DNA of 64,000 bases from Diphasiastrum complanatum (lineage: Eukaryota; Streptophyta; Lycopodiopsida; Lycopodiales; Lycopodiaceae): NCBI GenBank assembly GCA_029204225.1, contig CM055108.1:8616601-8680600 (forward strand), written 5' to 3'. This document shows, in pieces, positions 35,776 to 50,930 of this stretch. The position numbers were made by a program, and so were the translations under genes. The first letter of the stretch is position 1; the number at the start of each line of letters is the position of its first letter. A model generated the notes under the pieces. That model made no database searches. It saw only the letters and a list, made by a program, of their open reading frames with translations, and was not told the origin of the DNA.

Positions 35776-38700
35776 ATTTTCAAAGAATACAAACCATCAA
35801 GAAAGTAATCTTCAGGACACATCTATGAAAATTCAATCATTTCTTCATCCAATATGGAAGACATCGTCTATATATCCTACAAAACAAAACACAATCCCAA
35901 AATTATAATTTGATAGAGATCAATTCTTATTGGTGAAAACTTATTGATGAATTATTCATGAAATAAATTTCTCACAAAAGGTGAAATATCTACAATTTCA
36001 TAGCTCAAGTAAAAACAAAACACAATATTTGTGCATTGACCATATTTGATACTATTTAAAACAACACCCACTTAATATTCTTTAACTTGCACTTTGTAGA
36101 AAGTGAGGTACATAATAGCAATAGTAGAAACTAGCATAAAGAGAGCCAACTCGCGAGCACGAGGAAGAAGCAGAATACCTGCACCTCTTCTTATTCGTAA
36201 GTTAATCTTAGCTTTTGCTTTTGCTTTTTGAGCATTATGGATCTTCAGTTACTTGCATGGGCCATTCATTTTTTATGCTTTTACTATTCAAGCCATATAT
36301 AAGCCATATATATCGTTCATTGTTTGCATGTTGGATGAAAACATGCATTCATTTTTTTTCACTTATAAGGGGTTTTAAGATTTTGCTCTAAACCATGCAT
36401 TCGGTTTTTTCCTTACTTATGCCTCATGCAAATAAGGGTTACTAGCCTTTTATAATCCTAAAAAGCTTTTTGCCTTAAAATATAAAGTCACAACCACACA
36501 ATATTATTTAATGTCAACGTTTTACAAACTCCATTGACCGACCTCACCACATAGTATTGCCTTTGCAATACAAGGCCAAAAACAAAACAAAACACAATAT
36601 TTGACCTTTAACCATACTTGATACTATTTAAGACAACAACCACATAATGTGCTTTAACTTTCACTTTGTTACAAACTCCATTGACCAACCTAAACACATA
36701 GTATTGCCTTTCCAAGGCAAGGCCAAAAATTTAAATTTAAATGTAATTCATTCGGGAACTAGTATGGAACTTAGCCTCATAAAGTCACTCATAAAGTCAC
36801 TTGCTGGGGGTGTACTTTGCATGTCCATTCACTAAAGCTGCCTTTAGAATATAATGCTATAATGCTAGACATGGCTCAACTGAGCACAGACGAGGATTTA
36901 TGCTCTAACCTATGAGATGAAAACTTTCGTGACCTGTAGCCGAAAGTTTGAGAATGTGCACTGTGCACCTATGCTAATTAGTCTGTGAAATAACTGAATT
37001 CATTTCTCTGATGCTTCGTTTTCATGAAGTTCCACAGAAAAGAGGGTCAAGTAAATTATCAAAACACGCGAGCAAGTTTTTGTTGCAAAGAATAGCTGTT
37101 CCGATTTTTGGAGAGAGATATATGCTTAACACAGGCACGAAGCTTGCATGGCATCTGTTGAAGGGACTACGTCCATAGAAATTTTACACCAGAGATATGG
37201 TTGTCAGTACTTTTGTACCTATTTGAGAAGACAGTGCTTCTGCTCTAGTCAGGGCTCAGAGATAACCACTTCATGCAGCCAAAACACTCAGATAACCACT
37301 TCATGCAGCCAAACACTCAATTACTTTGTTGTGTGAGTGCATTTAGAAATAGCTATTGATATCGTACATTTAAATTTTATTCAAGTTCTTTATAAGGTTG
37401 CTTAAGGTCAATGATTTGTGTTGCGGTAGCGGAAAGATGTCAACCTCTCGCACCTAGAGAACATGCAATGAGTCCTGACATTCTTCGTGTAATAGATGAC
37501 AAGGTAATATTTTCAACCTAATCTCATAACTTATGAGTCCAAGGTCGAATTTCATATCTGCATTATCTGTTTTGTAATAAGATGTTTATTGACAAACTTG
37601 TGTTGGATCTAGATGTTTCAAAGGTTTCGATTATGCAAAAGATATTAACTTTTGCTTTTGCTTTTTACTCTTGCAAACAAACATGCAATAAAGCTGCTAC
37701 AACTCAAAAAATTTGATATTGATTGTGGAGTTTATCGATTAGATCAAGACAGCTCTGGGAGCCTACCACCGTTGGATTTTATCAGTATGGTTTACATTTC
37801 TTATTTTTTCACATAAAAGCGGAGGCATGCATGAATTAACTGACATCAAATAGTTAGGAATGAGAAGGACAAAGAAACGATCAATCACACTTGGCTTGCA
37901 AACTTCGACTGAATTGCTTCAGATTTTTGTTGTGCTACAACGTTTGAGCTGGACTTCACACCGGTCTGGTCCCAAACACCGGTCTGGTCCCGAGACTGCC
38001 GATACTAAGTAATGAGAAGGCTGGAAAACGACGAATCACACCTGCCTCACAACCGGACTCTGCACCAAAGTATGCTTTAATTGCTTCAGATTTGTGTGGA
38101 GAGCCACTGACATCCGCAACTCCAGATCTAATTTTTCTAAACAGCGTTTGTAACGTTCGGAACCTGGTTAGAATGCTTTGATCTGTTGATTGCTTGAGTT
38201 ACAAACTTGGATCTGTGAAATAGGTGTGGCTGCCTATTGAATCACGAGCAGAGCATGAATCCAACGGTAGAAGACAAAAAATTTGCTCCAAAAAAGTGCG
38301 TGAAGATAAGTGAAAATTCTTGCCTTCACATATTTAATTTGTGTCGCCTAACTGCTTTTCAAAAGGCTGAAAAGCTCTATGTGTTGTTAAATTAATGTTA
38401 ATAATGTGACCCATTGCACACATTGGTTCCTATCATGGGACTCCTTTCTGGCATGTTGAAAAGCTTTTCATATCTATGTGCTCTAAATTTAACGCTGCTC
38501 ATGTCATCCATGGCATGCATTGGTTTCTGTGATTCACATGTAAACATTAGGGAAAATATGGGCTCAAAATGGGCCCTTTAAGAAATTTTACTTTAGAGAG
38601 AGGTTACGTAGAGAGAGAATGCAACCCGGTAACTTCTGGTCGCCGTTTTCCGAGTTTTCGACCTTGCCCGACGTTTAACTAGTATGGTTAACTTCAGACA

Positions 38701-38951: not shown

Positions 38952-41735
38952 ATGATTGTAGTTTTAACAATGGCAATGTTCCATTTGCATGTTGCTCTTC
39001 CGATGGAATGCACTCCAATTATTAAGAAAAATGCGAAAGTTGTAGAGAATGCTGCAGCAATAGTTAGAGAATTGAGAATGAATAATCATATGAATATAGA
39101 TTTGTGGGTGGATGGATCAATTTATCCTAATGATCCAGCTACCAATTTGTATCCAGATTTTAAGTCTGTAACTCATCTTCTCAGATATGTATGTGAAGGA
39201 AATAGTGGATTACTTGAATACTGTCAAAGGTTGCGAGATATTGGAATGCATAGCATATCTTGTCTGAATCAACAATTACAGTTTGCTAATCAACAATTGC
39301 AACGTGCAAATCAACAATTGCTTCATTATGTGCAACACACTAGTGCTGAAAACAATGCACTCAAGAATGCTATGTCAGAGTTGAATGCTACTGTCACTAC
39401 TCTTCGAGGATCAAACCAAGAAATGTTAGAATCCATGGAAAAGTTGCGCTCCGAGAGTTTAAAATATGCTGTTGATCTAAAAGTTATCAATAAGGCAATG
39501 ATGAAGAGGAAAAGAAAGAGAGTACCAATGAAGAATATTGATGACCTATCTACACATAGCAGCAATCAGAAAAAAAGAATCCGAGCATTCAAGTATGTTG
39601 TCATCTAAACTGTTTATTTGATTTGTATATGTTAAGTTTGATTTTGCACTTGATAACATGGATTATTTATTTATTAAACATAATTTGAGTTTCATATGTT
39701 TGTTGCAGATCATGTTTGGTGGCAAATAACTATTTAACAGATCATTCATGCATTGGATCATCTTTAAGTCATGTTTTACCAAGAAAGTCAGCAAAGGAAA
39801 TGATAAAAAATGCTCGGTTTGAAAAAATGAAAAATGAAATTGTAGAGACTGTTTTGATTAAGGATCAATTATACTTGGATGCGAATGTGATACAAGTTGC
39901 ATGTGATGTATCTGGAATTAGCATAAATGCTTATTCTATTTTTTTTAGAATAGTTCAAGAAGCTTTTTCCCAAGTGATGGTGAAGAAAATTAATGTTCCG
40001 CATCCATATTGGGTAAGATTAGCAAGAAATTTTTATAATGACGGAATGTTCAAAGTAGTTGGCCAACCACTTCATATAACTGAATTATACAAATCGAAAT
40101 ATGGTGAGCTCAATTACAACGATTGCGATAATATTTTCCTTGATATTGAAAATGTTCTAAAATACATTATTCGATTCTATCAACTAGACGAACATCAAGT
40201 AAATGAAAAGATCATTATTGTAATAAAATTGGATGAATCTGAAATCATCAAGGGTCAGAAGTTGGAACGTGTGAGTGTCACTTTGATGAATAAAATTTCA
40301 GATACTGATGATCGAACGTTTAGTGTTCAATCGGAAAATCACATATAGTGGTTGGCGGCATTCCAGGTATACATTTCAATTTTCATTTAGAATATCTATA
40401 TTAACAATTCATACCTTGCCAGTTTTTATTGACATGTGATGCATTACTTGTTTCTTTACAGGTCTTGAAAGAGGACCATAAAATACGATCATGGATATTT
40501 TCAAGAACAAACTATGGCGAGATTATAAAGAGACATTTGGAGGGTGAGAAATTTACAGTCGAAAACCATGGAAGTTTTCAAATTCAATGGCATCTTGCAG
40601 GGGATTTGAAAACATTAAAATGTATGTATAATGTCTCTCATGGGACAACATCAAAACATCCATGTCTTTATTGTATGAAGGATTGCTACAATATGAATTT
40701 GGGACGATCAACAAACATTGGCCCAACACGAGAAGCTGAAGATCCAAATTAAAAAAGTGTTTTGCCAATTCCATTAAAATATGTTCACATATGCACATTG
40801 CATGCTGAGGTTCATATTATTGAAAAACTAATTTACCTGCATATTCTACTAGCATGGAATCATAAACCAGAGTCAGTGGCTAAAGCAGCAATTAGGAGGT
40901 TGGAAATAGTTCTGTCAAATGTAAGACTACATAAAGGGAATGTCACAATTGAAAAAAGTGACAGACTCTAAGAGAAAAAAGAAAACGTTCCTAATAAGCC
41001 ATCAATTGGAGGTGCTAAAGCAAGCAGATTTTTATCCAATCACACATGCAAAGAATCAAGTGTCAGATACAAAATTTGGAGAGAAATTGTTTAAGCCACA
41101 CAAACATTGGAAGGAAGTAATCAAGTGGAAAAGGGACAAGTGTGGACCAACTTAGACAAACTCATAGGTGTTATCAGGAAAGAAAACCTATCATCAGAAG
41201 ATATGAGGACTTTGCAAAATCATTGCACCACATTTGTAAAATCTGGACATGATTGTTGGGGAAAAGACAACGTTACTCATTACATGGTGCTAATGTATAT
41301 CATCATCTGGTACTTTTCTCATTCAGGCTTATATTTTTTTCTACTGATGTAACTAATCAAAACTATTGTTTGCAGCACATCTTTCTTCATCATGCAACTT
41401 ATTTTGCAAAGGAATATGAGAGCTTAAGTATCTGGTCATCACAAGACATGAAAAAATTTCATTGGCAAGCAAGGGGAGCATTTCATAGAGCAACAAATCA
41501 TGGAGGACACAATTCAAGAAATAAATATTTAGTTCAACTTTTTCAGTGGTTTTACAGAAGAGCACAATTTAGATATCAAGCTAAAACTCGTCAAGTATCA
41601 CAATATTTCGAAAGGCATTCAAATTCATTACAAAAGAGAGATCTTTGTAATATATCAAAAATCTATTACAGAAAATTATTTAATTATCATCATCATCCTC
41701 TTCAAGATTCAGATGGATGGTATTGTCATGAATGA
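38952..41735 (+). pseudogene. Four-exon transposase-like gene (RNase H-fold type suspected), damaged
   Basis: Exons by splice sites and frame: 38952-39592, 39709-40366, 40462-41309, 41376-41735; all three introns are GT-AG. Exon 1 has a Gln/Asn-rich coiled coil (NQQLQFANQQLQRANQQLL) and a basic KRKRKRVP patch. Exon 2 ends with IIIVIKLDESEIIKGQKLER, resembling a first catalytic Asp strand. Exon 3 has HLAGDLKTLKCMYNVSHGTT, SKHPCLYC (CxxC) and HICTLHAEVHIIEKLIY. Exon 4 has SIWSSQDMKKFHWQARGAFH and RATNHGG. This order (D, then GD...K.L...HPC.YC, then H..aR.a..R.T.HGG) matches, from memory, a poorly named transposon-protein family. Breaks: TAG 40346-40348, TAA near 40750, 40969 and 41090, and a frameshift near 41281. 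The third acidic residue is not evident. It ends 48 bp from the convergent gene. Confidence 0.55.
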
Positions 41736-41783: not shown

Positions 41784-43242
41784 TCATATCAATGTAGCCC
41801 GAATAAAGGGCCATTGTAGATGATCTTTGGTAGTCTCATTGGGAGTATAACCCAATATCTTGATAGCCAAATCTCTCTTCACAAAAATTATTTTATATGT
41901 TCCTCTTGCGTACTTATGGCCTCCTAAACAAACTGATAATGATTTGATAGTCATAATAACAGTGGTTGCATATGGATTATAAGATGAATGATCTATACAA
42001 ATCTCATTATTTTGAAAGTTTTTCAAATAATGAGATAGAGAAACATCTTTTCTCCCGGCTGATACACCTCGGACGCTTCCATGTCTCTTACCAAAGGCAT
42101 CTATTTCAATAGCATCCTATAAACGAGAAAAGAAAAGAAATTTAGAATGATACATAACACTGCAAACTCAATAAGAAAACTGAACAATATCAATACTAAT
42201 AAGAAATAAGAAAACTGAACAATGTCAATACCAATATAATATCTACTTACCAGATCATAATCATCGTAATCAATGACATTTGCTATGCTGATGTCATGTC
42301 CTCCAATGGCCTCTACATTTCCAGAGGAGATATATCTAGCCCTAGGGGTATATCTTTTTTGAAATTCCGAAAATTTCTCCTCTATAGGCAAAGTCTTTTG
42401 ATAGGCTTCAGATTTTTCAATCATGGCCTCCAAGGCCTCATTGCCAGATTTTCAATTGCCATCTTTATCATAATCTATTTCACTTTCAAGGTCATCATAT
42501 GAGTAATCAACAATGTCAGAAAATTTTGATAAATTTTGAGCAAAAATTGAGAGGACTTCATCCTCTTTCAGATTCAATACATCTTCTATATCATTAAATG
42601 AAATATAACATTCATTATTTATAAAATATAAAGGAACATCAAGTAGAGTTAATTGATTAACAAAAGATGCAGATGGAAGAGAATCAGAGAGGATTATAGA
42701 ACGAGGGAGAGTTTTTTTATAATCTAAAGCCATAGAAGCTTCAGCTTCAACCCCTATATCAGTATCTGCATCATTTACATCAACTGGAGCAGGTGCAGAT
42801 GCTTCGATCAATGGAACAGTTGAAGATTCAATAGACTCATCATCTGGAATTTCAGCAGATATGTAGAACACAAAAGCCATTCCTTTGATTAGAAGGCGAC
42901 ATATTCTTTTGTGGATATCAGAGTATATATTTGTTTTGAAATGGTCATGCAAGTTAGAGTACTTTTTATTGTGTTTATGCTTAGAGGATGGTTGGGAATG
43001 TACAAGGTCCTGAAAATGAACGAAACAAAAATTATCTATATCCATGACAGGAGTACTAATAATCTGAGAAAAATTATCAAGATAAGAAATTAAATTATAA
43101 CGATTCTCATAAACTAGCTTATCGATATCGAAGGGAGCAAAAAAAAATACTAGCAAAATACTCTAATTTGTCAGATGGAATGTCACTTGCATTAAAAAAA
43201 ATCCATAAGTTTGTCATCTGAGGCCATGGAGGAACTAGCCAT
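41784..43242 (-). pseudogene. Unknown two-exon gene, convergent with the transposase-like gene
   Basis: Probable ATG at 43240-43242 (MASSSMASDDKLMDFF). Frameshifts in T-runs near 43190 and 43150 separate this from the main frame (43156-42455), which contains DIDKLVYENRYNLISYLDNF, an acidic Ser/Glu/Asp middle (EIPDDESIESSTVPLIEASA) and FNDIEDVLNLKEDEVLSIFA. A TGA at 42452-42454 is followed in frame by SGNEALEAMIEKSEAYQKTL and IANVIDYDDYDL. A GT-AG intron (42117-42250) leads to the last exon (DAIEIDAFGKRHGSVRGVSA ... WPFIRATLI). I recognise no family. Its position, and the motif copies just upstream, link it to the H3-like gene on the other side. Confidence 0.5.
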
Positions 43243-43584
43243 ATTGAATCCAATATCGGTTCAATGCGACAGATAAATATCGGTAGAAGAATAAAGCAAA
43301 CTGCACGCGCTGATCCGATATAGTAAAATGCCGAGAATGAAATTTTTCAAGAAGAACTGGTCGGCAGGGGCTGATATCGATTCAGCGCGCCAGAATGAAT
43401 ACGAGCATGCACAACAAGGGTTGGCGCACGTCGATTCGATATCGGAAGAATGAAGAAAAACAAGAAGGCTAGAGAGTTTAGAATACAAGATTACGGAATC
43501 GAAATAAGGCAAGTGGTGCACATATTTGTAGCCAATTCCCGTTGATCACAGCCATACATCTGTCAAATAACGAACTGTGATTTA

Positions 43585-43612: not shown

Positions 43613-44475
43613 TTGTACCTAAGCTAAAATACATTGACTAGTCTAGTACTAGATTCAACTAATCATTATTAGCCCTGACCTTAGAATCTGTACCTGCGCC
43701 GGAATGCATTAAATAAAAAATCACTGGCCTCCTAGAATAATCAGTAAAAAAATTATAAACAATTGATTAATGGATATAATTGAAAAACATGAATGAGGAG
43801 ATTTATTACAATCTTTCGTCCTATTTAAGCACCGTAAAGACAAAATTTTTCCTTTTGAAATAATGTTCATTCAAAACATTTTCATAAGTCTTTCATTATG
43901 CGTTCCAGTAATATTTTTCTGCATATGGGATATCGGATCAGCACGCCTAGCAGACAATGTATTAGCTGCATTTGGACCTCGCGCGTCGAATCGCTATTCC
44001 AGAAAAAAATATTGTCAAAAATTTTGAAACTTTTGAATCCTATATGCATGATCAAAGCTTGATTTGAAAGACTCTTCATAATAGCCAAAGTTATGCAGAA
44101 TCTATCGAATCAAGCTCTGATCATTCTTATTGCGTCCAATATTGGATGAGCGTATGAGAATACATACTATGGTTGTCAAATGCTTTATATACGCGTTGAT
44201 TAGCTATCGAGTGAAAATCTGGCTTTTGGTATTTTCAAAAAGTATAATTATTGGATATAAAAAAGCTTTTATATTTAAAGCTTAACGTTGTCAAATTCAG
44301 CATTAAATGGTAGAAGTGTGATATTATACTTTTGTAGTATTAATTGTAGATGTGACCATACTTTATTTGAAATTAAATTTGTTTAATTCGATATGGACTA
44401 ATCATTTTGAAGACTGATGGATATTTAGATTGATTTGATTGACAAGCCTCTAAGTAATCATCATCGTAATATGAG

Positions 44476-44530: not shown

Positions 44531-45444
44531 ACTGATCGACGACGTTGAAATTTTTTTGCTTATAGTTAATTGCATCCATGCGATATCGATTCAGCGCGCT
44601 CAAAACCAACTTCCTTCAATCTGTTACTACTCGCGCGCGCCCATCCGCTATCAGCTTACGTAATTGTTGAGTTTTGGTATCGCTTCGACGCGTCCGACCT
44701 GAGGTCTGATCTTGTAATCAACATTATCGCGTGCTGATCCGCTACTACACATTAACGGCGCGGACCAAGCAGATAGCACATGGGCATTCAGGTGGAATAC
44801 CAATTTCAGGTGCGGGTCAGGAAAATCCACAACCGCCACCTCCTCCTAGGCCAAGGGGCAGAAGAAGAGACCCTCCATGGATCAAGGATATTCGGAAGCT
44901 TCAGAAGACAAATAATCTTCTGATTTCGAAATCTCACATACAGAGGTCCATCAGGCAGGTGACAAGAAATCTATCTGCAGATGTGAGATGGACAGTAACG
45001 GCAATTGAGGCGCTGCACACAACATATGAGGATTTCCAGGTGAAATTTTTTTCTAATACCCATGCCAAGAGGGTGACCATCATGCCCAAGGATTTCAACA
45101 TAGTGTTCAGGTTTCGGGACACATATGACAAGTTTGCTGAATACATTAGACCTGCTCCCTCCTCTCCTCCAGAACGAGATTCAGAGAGGAGAAAACGCAA
45201 GCAATCTCAACCAACCCAGCTTGTTATTCGTACACAGAGCGAGAGTGTTTCAAAGAAGAGGAGGTCTCTTGACCCTCCATCTAAAGCGAGGGATTTTTCC
45301 AAGCCAAATCCTCTAAATACTATTCTTTCTTCTATTCATTCCCCTCCTAATTCTCCTTCTTCTCCTCCTAAGTCTCCTTCTTTTCCTTCCACTCCATCTT
45401 TAACTTCTCCTGCTAAATCTTCCTCTCCTAATAAATCTCCACCT

Positions 45445-46293
45445 TGTTAAGATTGGCAAAAGCTAACTTGATCATATCTTGTGAATACCATTATGAGTAA
45501 TACATATCATCATAAGACATGTGTGGAGCCTATTCCCACGTGTGAAATGAATGCATTTATCATTTAGATAAGTCATATAGGTTGTACATACCATTTCATT
45601 TGAGATCTAGTGGCTAAAATGGCCAAAATCTAGTTTTTAGGCTATATGCCACTTGGCATCATTTTATTGGTAAGAAAAGCTATTTCACATGGATAGGAGT
45701 GATCTCACACGTTCCAAGGACTGCTCACATGTGTGAAAACATCAGTAGTAGGTGAGATCCAACTTGTAGTAGATATTTGTGCAAGTCCCTATAAATTAGG
45801 AAAATTGCCTAAAATCAAAGGAGGTGGCTATAAGTTAGGAAACTTGGTCCATGTGCCATATTGATGCTTATTGGTGGATCCTTTGATGAGTAGGCACTCT
45901 CATGCGTGCCAAATCAGCTGAGTAAGCATCAGCTCTTTGTATATATAGTAGCTCATTTGGCCATAATTGACATGGAAGCTAAATCTTGGTTTTGGAGCAA
46001 TTCTAGTGTTTTCTCTCTATTTGTCTTGTGTTTTTATGCATTGATTGGGTTCTAAGCTTAGTATACTTTATTCTCAGCCTAATGTCCGTACTCTGACAGG
46101 TTTTCACACGTGTGAAACTAGCAAGTACAAGTTTTGATCAATAATGATTGTTCTTGTTAGATTTATTCATCTAGATTTGATCTAAATGCTATTTAATCTT
46201 GTGTAGATTGATAGGTTGATCTAATCTAACATCCAATCACACTTGTGGATCTGATTCAGATATATTCTTGGTCCATTTTGCTGTACTTTGACA
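45445..46293 (+). mobile_element. Solo LTR inserted in the linker of the H3-protease gene
   Basis: 849 bp, TGTTAAGATTGG...CTTTGACA, flanked by CACCT (45440-45444) and CACTT (46294-46298), a 5-bp target duplication with one C/T change. It contains TTTTCACACGTGTGAAAC (46101-46118), as in the copia LTRs of this window, and a TATATATAG word near 45940. Without it the Pro/Ser-rich frame is continuous. Confidence 0.85.
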
Positions 46294-47078
46294 CACTTCC
46301 TAAATCTCCTCCTCCTCCTAAACCCGTAAATATTAGTTCCCCTCCTTCTGTTGTTGGAAGCGATTTAGATGATTTTGTTAGTGTAAAGGTAGAATCAATT
46401 TTGAATGACAATTCTTTATGTGGTTTATCTGTGTTACTTCCGGCACCCCCTACACTTGCCTTTGCAAATAGTCCTCAATATGTACAGTATGACCAATTGT
46501 TAAATACGTATCTTAAAGGTTTAGGTCCTCGATACAGTTTTAGGATGCCGAAGACCAATGTTGGTCTCCCCCTTTCTAGTTTAGATACTACTGAATTAGA
46601 AAGTAGGGATAAAATGCTAGGGGACAATGTAGGAGGTGGGGCCATTCAGTACTAGATGGAGTTCTTCCAGACCCCATTGTTTATAGATGTTGCATTGTTT
46701 CCCCTTCAATTCATGGCAGCATTTGATTTCCCTGATTTCAAAAGTCTGCACAGACTGGGGACTCCAATTCTTGTGCTGCCATACATAACAAAGTAAGTGA
46801 CTATTTTTTAGATTTTATTTTATTGAATTTTTCATATGAATTTCGATTTCATATTGATTCTCATAAATTTCTTGTTTTCTGATTTCAGTGATCATTGCAG
46901 CTTATATGTGTTGTCCCTGTATGTCCATGATGAGGGTGTGTGTAATTCAGTTTGTTTGAAGATGAACTCTATTACACACATACACAAAATTGCCAGGACC
47001 CATGCACAGAAAATATTGGAACTATTTCCAGCACCAAATGCAAAAGCATACTCGAAGCTGAAAATGGTTGATGCAGAG

Positions 47079-47334
47079 GTATAAATTTTTTATCGGTTCG
47101 ACGTGCCCTTGTAGTTATTGAATGGTTTATTTTTCCAACGTGTGCGCTGATCCGATCTTCAATCAAAATTTTTGATATCGGATCGACACGCGCTTGTTTC
47201 CATTGTAGATTTTATTCTCTTCAATCAAAATTTTTGATATCGGATCGACACGCGCTTGTTTCCATTGTAGATTTTATTCTTACATCCTGCGCGTTGATCC
47301 GATATCTCGTAATGTTCAAATTTTAATTCTGCAG
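47079..47334 (+). promoter_or_regulatory. Intron 2 of the H3-protease gene with five motif copies
   Basis: A GT-AG intron (GTATAAAT...TTAATTCTGCAG). The motif lies at 47091-47108, 47140-47158, 47174-47193, 47236-47255 and 47288-47308. Two of these come from a 62-bp tandem duplication (about 47157-47218 and 47219-47280). The intron is otherwise AT-rich, so the motif density is not explained by composition. Confidence 0.8.
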
Positions 47335-47564
47335 TCCTCCCAGCAGGTTGATTCTGTCAATTGTGGCTGGTATACCGTATGCAATGCCAAACACTTTTTT
47401 AATTGGCTTGCATTACAAGATGGACTTCCAAATCTGGAAGAGATAATATTCGATTAATTACTTTTAATTGTGTTTTTATTTTTTTCATATACAAACTCCT
47501 ATTAGCTAATCTTTGATTAACTACATTTAACTGTGTTTATGTTTTTTTTTTTTCAATTTAAATG

Positions 47565-48255
47565 CCCGAAGGTCTCCCCAATGGAGATAATGCACTTTAG
47601 GCAGGAGACCATAAAGATTGTGATCGAAAATTCATATCCAATTCTAGTGGCCGAGTGTTCTCCACCCTAGCTACCTCCAACTAGAAAAATGGATTTAGAG
47701 ATCATAGATAGTTGATCATGTTTAAATATTCGTCTCACTTTATGTGGATGAGACACATGTACAAATTTTTTTAATAGAAATATACTTACAGTTTTTGTTC
47801 TTACATGTTTTTTTTCCTCTTATCAATTCAGGTTATGATTCATTCATCTTCAATTTCTACTGTTTTTTGACATGTTTGTGTTTCATAGCCTTGGTCTGCC
47901 TTGCCTTTACCATGGTCTTTTTTTGGATAAGTTCAGAATGATGATCTAATCGAACCTTTGCCACAACCAATCCAAACATGCGACATTAGTTCACTTAGAT
48001 TTGTCGCAGCAAAGCTTTGATCAGATCATCATCTGAATATATCCAAATATGCCAAGACAAGGACAATACTAACCAAGACAATGAAGACTAAAAACAAAAC
48101 CGATATATACAAGACTTCAACAAGGGCAAGCGATCAACTGGAGTTCAAGTGACTGAAGATCTCCCCAATGGAGATAGTGCATTTCCTGCAGGAGACAGTG
48201 AATCTTCCTATCGAAAACTCATATTATCCAGTTGCAATTACATTGTGTTTTGCAC
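47565..48255 (+). repeat. Direct duplication flanking a gene-free stretch
   Basis: 47565-47665 and 48155-48255 share GGTCTCCCCAATGGAGATA (GAT for GGT in the second), TGCA...CAGGAGAC and TATCGAAAACTCATAT-type words, 590 bp apart. Short ORFs across them show no family. 47458-47564 and 47666-48154 hold nothing else recognised. Confidence 0.5.
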
Positions 48256-48639
48256 CATGGAAATGGAGATCATAGAAATGAATGAGCCTCATAAAAAAAG
48301 TGGTTCATATATATTCTTAAATGATGTATACAAAAAATTGTATTACATAATACAAAATTTCATAGTTCATAATCTATGGATCTTCAATTTTGGTGGATGT
48401 TCCAATGTCTTTGCATGTAGGATTTTCCATTCAAGCACGATCACTTAAATGTGGGGTAGGTGGGCCTTAACCACCATTGTAGTTTGCTAATTTCCATGCA
48501 TGCATGATCACTTACATGTGGGGTAGTTGGGACCTTAACCAAGGTCCAAGCCTAAAATGTCGAGACCATCTTCACTTTTTATCCTTTAACATTGACTTTC
48601 TCCTAAACTCCAAGACTAATGCAGAGAAGAAAGAGATGT

Positions 48640-49276: not shown

Positions 49277-49320
<44 letters not shown>

Positions 49321-49550
49321 GCATGAAAAGGGAGGACATTCAAGCTCTTGCATTAACAAATGAGATTTGAGTACATGAAATACAAATGTTTTGGCCACGT
49401 TAGAGTGGCACAAGATTTTTGGCACATTTCTAATCTTGGAAGTCTGAGTTAACTTTCTTTTATTCATTTTCACAAGTAGCTTGACTTTTACAATGTTTTT
49501 AGTATTCAGGTTGTGTCGTTTTATTTTCTAGTTGTGCTTTGAGGCACGTT
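49259..49550 (-). repeat. Repeat arm with a (CT)n tract, inverted relative to 50700-50930
   Basis: A (CT)18-type microsatellite at 49281-49317, followed by sequence whose reverse complement (CATGTACTCAAATCTCA.TTGTTAAT, CAAGAGCTTGAAT) matches 50725-50805. The outer part (49440-49550) is inverted with respect to 57395-57515 (CACAAGTAGCTTGACTTTTA). Confidence 0.7.

Positions 49551-50699: not shown

Positions 50700-50930
<231 letters not shown>

Follow-up and report, generated by a model that had tools for sequence, protein, structure and literature searches.

Histone H3-like and protease-like domains at one locus

Can a mobile element encode a protein that joins a histone domain to a protease domain, and what would such a protein do for it? 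The question is raised by positions 44755-47457 of a 64,000-nucleotide stretch of Diphasiastrum complanatum DNA (Lycopodiaceae; contig CM055108.1), hereafter the window, where an initial annotation made from the sequence alone had seen a histone H3-like domain fused to a Ulp1/C48-type protease. By comparison with other genomic copies we show that these positions hold a dead copy of one gene, here called gene C, from a repeated element that carries several genes and has terminal inverted repeats (TIRs). As read from the sequences of these copies, gene C encodes one protein, composed of an H3-like domain, a Pro/Ser linker and a C48-like cysteine protease domain (H3-C48). The window copy is dead, and the ancestral gene behind it is, judged from its relatives, real.

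The H3-like nature of the first domain is practically certain. The annotated ARTKQ tail is present and begins at 44758, and the H3-like fold with its HAKRVTIMPKD stretch is recovered by the PF00125 profile (E 1.1e-15, 58.4 bits against a cut-off of 26.4). H3 chains from the PDB align from ARTKQ through the last helix (E 4.9e-14), and identity to canonical H3 is about 34% over about 131 residues. Thus a Pfam match above cut-off, the HAKRVTIMPKD stretch and an ARTKQ-like tail occur together. HAKRVTIMPKD is identical to H3 in three of four aligned copies, and all four keep K4 and have no lysine at the positions of K9, K14, K18, K23, K27 and K36; K4 is present in 11/11 copies when the window is included. 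An origin from CENH3 is tentatively disfavoured because HAKRVTIMPKD matches canonical H3. Another protein, P0013 (416 amino acids), combines a MARTKQTAWKTSGGK tail and a canonical H3 fold with a long insert between them.

Other genomic copies join the two domains

We searched the window's own genome (1.74 Gb) with the H3 frame, which returned 8160 candidates, and scored the best 150 matches. Around each of ten H3-frame matches we fetched 20 kb (copies c1-c10; c1 and c2 are about 99% alike and were counted once). Homology between copies is mostly 89-95% and links stretches of genes A, B and C of the element with common ends. Match counts do not give the number of insertions, since several copies resemble haplotype duplicates of one another, as c1/c2 and matches with equal scores do.

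In three copies a single open exon runs from the ARTKQ position through the H3-like domain and the linker into the protease part, for 411 (c1), 411 (c2) and 410 codons (c3), and the exon of c3 begins with ATG. The codon before the tail is ATG in eight of the ten other copies (c3-c10), ACA in c1 and ACG in c2.

A protease query of the genome gave 329 matches; the best 150 were merged into 140 loci and compared with the best 150 H3 matches. At least 23 of these 140 loci have a listed H3 match upstream on the same strand within 3 kb. Spacing is 566-650 bases in 20 of the at least 23 pairs, the other three having been measured from another exon or over a long terminal repeat (LTR). Among the matches listed, no protease locus (0/140) has an upstream H3 on the opposite strand, and one has H3 on its downstream side. 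The 117 protease loci with no listed partner are not loci without H3, because both lists hold best matches only: when six of them were read upstream, an H3 domain was found in five, and the sixth lacks part of the first exon. We therefore have little doubt, from the sequences compared, that the two domains belong to the same gene. The annotation had named the lack of any other copy joining them as one outcome that would refute the idea; such copies do exist.

In the window the H3-like domain sits in an open frame (44710-45450), and gene C ends with TAA at 47455-47457. Both annotated GT-AG introns are found again in the eight other copies checked, although the second donor has decayed in c7 and c9. 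Openness beyond chance also held: equal openness arose in 1, 1 and 2 of 2000 dinucleotide-shuffled sequences for the H3 piece (230 codons), the piece after the LTR insert (117) and the joined protease exons (149), respectively, which excludes chance openness. The claimed exact closure over 498 codons fails, because the frame has one stop and no ATG. The stop is an in-frame TAG where 8/8 other copies checked read TGG; the start codon position is ACG, and the upstream open frame has no in-frame ATG.

Further losses separate the window copy from its relatives. It is short of five codons (VVAAV) preceding HAKRV, which are present in 10/10 other copies, of seven codons (DDMLQYV) in the protease part and of five codons in the Pro-rich stretch. 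A solo LTR of 849 bp, whose flanks CACCT and CACTT are alike at 4/5 positions, accounts for about 850 extra bases relative to c1, c2, c4, c6 and c7. An exact 62-bp tandem duplication (47156-47279) lies in intron 2, which measures 256 bases against 196-199 in eight other copies, and gives rise to an extra motif arm. Because other copies carry intact the features that the window copy lost, we conclude that the fusion is real and that the window copy has decayed.

Ratios of nonsynonymous to synonymous differences (pN/pS) were calculated among ten mostly dead copies, with c2 excluded and the window included. The linker gives 0.77 (45 pairs), and the three protease exon pieces give 0.48, 0.53 and 0.47 (36 pairs each); by these ratios the protease part shows past constraint.

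The protease-like domain

The second domain is very probably C48-like. SENP8 was the top PDB match in 4/4 sequence searches, although these matches are weak (E 0.049, 0.013, 0.27 and 0.16), and each search places the stretch QQ.DSV.CGWYTVCN on QQNSYDCGMYVICN of SENP8. The His, Gln and Cys of the catalytic set are present in most copies. Of the core originally described, Gln and Cys stand as annotated; the His motif, which reads DHC in the window, is altered there, since seven of the nine other copies showing it read DHW. The position of the catalytic Asp reads Asn, and we therefore write C48-like instead of C48. The suggested profile check of the predicted product bore out the histone half only, PF02902 giving no match.

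Proposed role of the protein and rival explanations

We propose, at a probability of about one in two, that the H3-C48 protein acts on chromatin for the element, either by anti-silencing or by bringing about a transposition-proficient chromatin state. We prefer anti-silencing because two known systems are analogous: the KIU genes that VANDAL elements carry, and the CMCT transposons with TET/JBP. The protein would be the element's chromatin factor. Its H3 domain, with K4 kept and K9, K27 and other tail lysines lost, could pair with host H4 or H3 chaperones or be read by H3K4 readers, and this pairing or reading would bring the protein to nucleosomes. There the protease-like domain may remove SUMO or NEDD8 from silencing or repair proteins or, if the Asn inactivates it, bind SUMO or NEDD8 instead. 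Specific action on the DNA of the element itself could come from a putative element protein that sits as a dimer on the palindromic units described below. The outcome would be anti-silencing, in the manner of the VANC/KIU proteins of VANDAL, or the transposition-proficient state. A bolder version, which we consider unlikely, makes the element self-chromatinising. In it the RAG1-like plant transposon would supply a histone of its own: H3-C48 would pair with host H4 and be deposited on the element, where the paired 17-bp arms 52 bp apart would position a sub-nucleosomal particle. Chromatin of the element could then carry K4 marks but no K9/K27 silencing marks, while the fused protease would strip SUMO or NEDD8 from silencing factors.

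Several results weigh against the proposed chromatin role or the domain readings beneath it. The exact ARTKQ tail occurs in only 4/11 copies (c1, c6, c8 and the window), the other seven reading AQTKQ or AWTKQ. The AlphaFold model of the H3 domain has four helices in H3 order at a low-confidence pLDDT of 54.7; fold searches with it gave nothing usable, the model being too weak. A protein database search with gene C as read returned histone proteins only. The protease part has no Pfam match in the window or in the three copies given, and PF02902 is among the families that missed it; the Asn means that the His-Asp-(Gln)-Cys set is incomplete in the copies showing this position; and in one of the four PDB searches unrelated FGFR2 chains score nearly as well as SENP8 (0.17 against 0.16). 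For the H3 domain pN/pS is 1.00 (45 pairs, 10 copies) and does not show constraint, in a sample that mixes in neutral decay, dead copies drifting towards 1 whatever their past. Finally, c1, c2, c3 and c8 gave no match to gene A, and c7 and c10 gave fragments only.

The main rival, which we hold to be rather unlikely, is that H3-C48 acts in transposition itself, as a subunit through which the transposase complex wraps DNA or is targeted, its H3 part holding the paired 17-bp arms or targeting nucleosomes and its protease maturing or freeing the complex. Inverted arms 52 bp apart (about five helical turns) around a spacer of fixed length and free sequence suggest a rigid paired complex, and a RAG1-like transposase adjoins gene C. 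Vertebrate RAG2, the companion of RAG1, reads H3K4me3. Ginger1 transposases have Ulp1 in the same protein (PMC2836005). However, a cleavage complex would occupy the ends of the element, and the units are found instead between genes B and C and in an intron.

The H3 part might instead be a functionless passenger, a transduplicated host H3 in frame with the protease gene by chance. The pN/pS of about 1.0 fits this, and gene capture is known for plant transposons (PMC13317346). We find the idea improbable: although identity to H3 is no more than about 34%, the copies retain the frame, the K4 tail and, mostly, HAKRVTIMPKD; a passenger long free of constraint should be broken, yet the c3 exon is open for 410 codons; H3 stands at five of the six protease loci read, the sixth being without the upstream exon part; and a ratio near 1 is what dead copies approach in any case.

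A low probability also attaches to the view that the second domain is another fold with chance QxxxxxC and HW motifs. It would explain the missing Pfam match, the PDB E-values of only 0.013 to 0.27, the near tie with FGFR2, and the fact that the three places in the genome matched by PF02902 are not among the listed matches of the gene C protease family. However, SENP8 came first in every PDB search and aligned on the Gln-Cys stretch, and the canonical HW missing from the window is present in other copies.

Viruses, too, have histone folds and C48 proteases of the adenain-like kind, but integration of a viral genome (giant virus or Maverick-like) is a very remote explanation here, as none of ten open reading frames given to Pfam matched a virus structural family and the transposase and TIRs explain mobility. 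Viral contigs scanned with the H3 frame, pieces of genes A and B, the gene A relative P0016 and the unit pattern gave no relative or match.

The element that carries gene C

The pointer of the initial annotation to MULE (Mutator-like element) or CACTA transposons is refined to a transposase of the RAG1/Transib (CMCT) kind. With high probability, the element is a CMCT-clade transposon. Its coordinates in the window are collected in Table 1.

Table 1. Features of the element copy in the window
Feature	Positions	Strand	Evidence
Left TIR (CATTAGGG...CTCAAAATGGGCCCTTT)	38545..38579	+	sharp left end common to c4, c5, c6, c9 and window
Gene A, RAG1/Transib (CMCT)-kind transposase, stop-broken	38979..41735	+	relatives P0015-P0029, P0016 model
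Gene B, unclassified protein, tail-to-tail with gene A, broken in window; start approximate	41787..43240	-	
Palindromic unit 1, 17-bp arms and 35-bp spacer	43253..43321	.	
Palindromic unit 2	43374..43442	.	
Palindromic unit 3, 34-bp spacer	43930..43997	.	
Palindromic unit 4, left arm decayed (score 8.3)	44139..44207	.	
Palindromic unit 5	44583..44651	.	
Palindromic unit 6, 9 bases before gene C start codon position	44677..44745	.	
Gene C, first exon up to the LTR: start codon position, H3-like domain (44758-45204), beginning of Pro/Ser linker	44755..45444	+	PF00125, PDB H3, copies
Solo LTR TGTTAAG..TTTGACA within gene C	45445..46293	.	sequence; copy comparison
Gene C, rest of first exon: linker and N-terminal protease-like part, in-frame TAG 46653-46655	46294..46792	+	
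Gene C, intron 1, GT-AG	46793..46888	+	
Gene C, exon 2: His motif, Asn at catalytic Asp position	46889..47078	+	
Gene C, intron 2, two palindromic units and 62-bp tandem duplication	47079..47334	+	
Palindromic unit 7, intron 2	47090..47158	.	
Palindromic unit 8, intron 2	47237..47305	.	
Gene C, exon 3: QQVDSVNCGWYTVCN, Gln and Cys of C48-like core	47335..47457	+	SENP8 alignment, copies
Element sequence 3' of gene C	47458..48416	.	homology to other copies ends at about 48416

The left end reads CATTAGGG(G/A)AAATATGGGCTCAAAATGGGCCCTTT, and the right end is its imperfect inverse; most ends examined read CATTAGGG..CCCTAATG, and single ends vary. The 17-base TIR core has 846 + 833 exact occurrences in the genome, and its reversed control has none. 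The window copy starts at 38545 and loses homology at about 48416. Neither a right part nor a right TIR was found for it in the window; the right end is seen in c3, c4 and c7. In c4 both ends surround genes A, B and C together with a further insert of about 4.4 kb, and a TIR pair on C1 (16973144-16981372) contains an H3 match. From the left end in the window, the right ends of c3 and c7 and one TIR pair, we estimate a full length of about 10 to 11 kb. A terminal repeat and target site duplication (TSD) search in the single copy gave nothing above shuffles; the ends emerged only from the comparison of copies. Outside CA..TG no consistent TSD was seen in eight end pairs (six paired by distance only, plus L039/L040 and c4), one of which has TTG on both sides; an AT duplication within a CATG target is possible.

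Gene A was matched in c4, c5, c6, c9 and the window. Its relatives P0015-P0029 come from ENA and Logan contigs and a fern, with E-values down to 3.2e-106; the fern sequence, P0029 from Adiantum nelumboides, is 59% identical over 18% of the query. The predicted structure of P0016 matches RAG1 and Transib well above other transposases; gene A is a DDE transposase with a relative predicted to adopt the RAG1/Transib fold. Only this fold comparison matched: a profile of the family found nothing real among PDB sequences, and 17 family members scanned had no Pfam match above cut-off, RAG1 not being among the families listed. Under the CMCT motif definition (PMC12730594), the motif residues of P0016 are D411, D508, C528, C531, H761, H766 and E785. 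The first and the second D are each found in c4, c5, c9 and the window, C(2)C in c5, c6, c9 and the window (lost in c4), and H(4)H in c4, c5, c10 and the window. The last catalytic Glu is present in c4, c5, c6 and c10 and is Lys in the window.

Gene B is conserved in the copies and open for 351 + 145 codons in c5. Pfam, PHROGs and PDB gave nothing convincing for it; one PHROG of unknown function had E 0.00076 on an intron-containing stretch. An identification as a KilA/MSV199-like viral gene, which rested on a motif reading and a DUF3627 match at E 0.073, was dropped.

Palindromic units

A 17-bp motif, ATATCGGATCRRCGCGC, recurs as inverted pairs with starts separated by 52 bases (51 in one pair). 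The window has eight such units, each about 69 bp long: six in the interval from gene B to gene C and two within intron 2 of gene C. The arms score 16.2 to 27.9 (8.3 for the left arm of unit 4), and no site elsewhere in the 64 kb exceeds 11.2; since the matrix was built from 14 hand-picked window arms, its scores on those arms are circular. A pattern search, which is not circular, found 5 matches against 0 in 100 shuffles, and the single-spacing pairing is likewise non-circular. All eight pairs are present in c5, c9 and c10 and fewer in other copies, and both arms of unit 4 are found in c4, c5, c7, c9 and c10; as the copies are relatives, this conservation is no independent test. The arms are on average 71% alike and the 35-bp spacers 28%. 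Fixed spacer length with free sequence suggests a rigid two-site complex on one helix face.

Other observations around gene C

Two 81-base stretches 3' of gene C (47557-47637 and 48144-48224, 587 apart, 77% alike) have the same-frame reading (V/I)SPMEI(M/V)HF(R/L)QET.. and are possibly duplicated terminal exons. Inverted 112-bp arms at 49280-49391 and 50733-50844, 1341 bp apart and 95% complementary, are rich in TC/GA microsatellite. A possible further gene lies on the minus strand of c3 (L013/L014), from 4149 down to about 2950 as counted from where the H3 frame starts, near the right end. This frame 3' of gene C is open for 271 codons, has no Pfam match above cut-off and was not found in the window copy, in which homology ends earlier.

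Significance and comparison with known systems

An H3-like and protease-like gene suggests that the element brings its own means of handling host DNA packaging. A protein that imitates the histone tail and fold, with K4 but no silencing lysines, would give the element a direct way of countering silencing, open to experimental test, and the fixed-spacing palindromes offer a ready binding assay. A RAG1/Transib-fold transposase in a land plant, together with its fern relative, bears on the spread of the RAG1 lineage. The literature and protein searches turned up no transposon protein with a core histone domain, and the literature searched, mostly without subscription papers, no H3-Ulp1 fusion; among the 15 listed of 88 papers found on the subject, none reports a land-plant transposase of RAG1/Transib fold in its title or abstract. 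Ulp1 proteases and DNA demethylation enzymes are already known on transposons (PMC2836005, PMC13317346, PMC12730594); PMC8355894 and PMC3985635 served as general background only.

The H3-like domain shares with canonical histone H3 the ARTKQT-like tail, the helix order of the weak model and HAKRVTIMPKD. It differs in the loss of tail lysines besides K4, in a Pro-rich insert after the tail and in the linker and protease-like domain at its C-terminal side. SENP8 (NEDP1/DEN1), a C48 deNEDDylase, is the best PDB sequence match to the second domain and has the same QQ..S..CG.Y..CN around the Cys, whereas gene C has Asn for the catalytic Asp, weak E-values and the fused H3-like domain.

Transib-type elements have CACWATG ends with a 5-bp TSD. 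Unlike Transib and RAG1, our element has CATTAGGG termini, a long coiled-coil N-terminus in its transposase, no Pfam RAG1 match among the families listed and no 5-bp TSD in the eight end pairs, and it is thus not Transib proper. Ginger1 is also a DNA transposon with a Ulp1 domain, but there the domain sits in a Gypsy-integrase-like transposase, and the word histone does not appear in the main text (PMC2836005).

The CMCT transposons, above all the fungal ESTA, share with the element a RAG1-like transposase with C(2)C and H(3-4)H motifs, CA..TG termini and an accessory epigenetic gene (PMC12730594). Here the host is a plant, the accessory protein is H3-C48 instead of TET/JBP, and no TA or other TSD was seen outside CA..TG.

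The KIU (Kaonashi) genes of plant VANDAL MULEs offer a close parallel for gene C itself. Their Ulp1-bearing VANC proteins recognise motifs in the non-coding DNA of their own elements (PMC13317346). The combination of MULE transposase and VANC was not found in the element, gene A being RAG1/Transib-like and gene C having an N-terminal H3-like domain, although VANC itself was not searched for; the 69-bp palindromes and the TIRs also set it apart, KIU carriers being non-TIR MULEs. What the two systems have in common is an accessory Ulp1-domain gene, short element-specific non-coding motifs and a multi-gene element.

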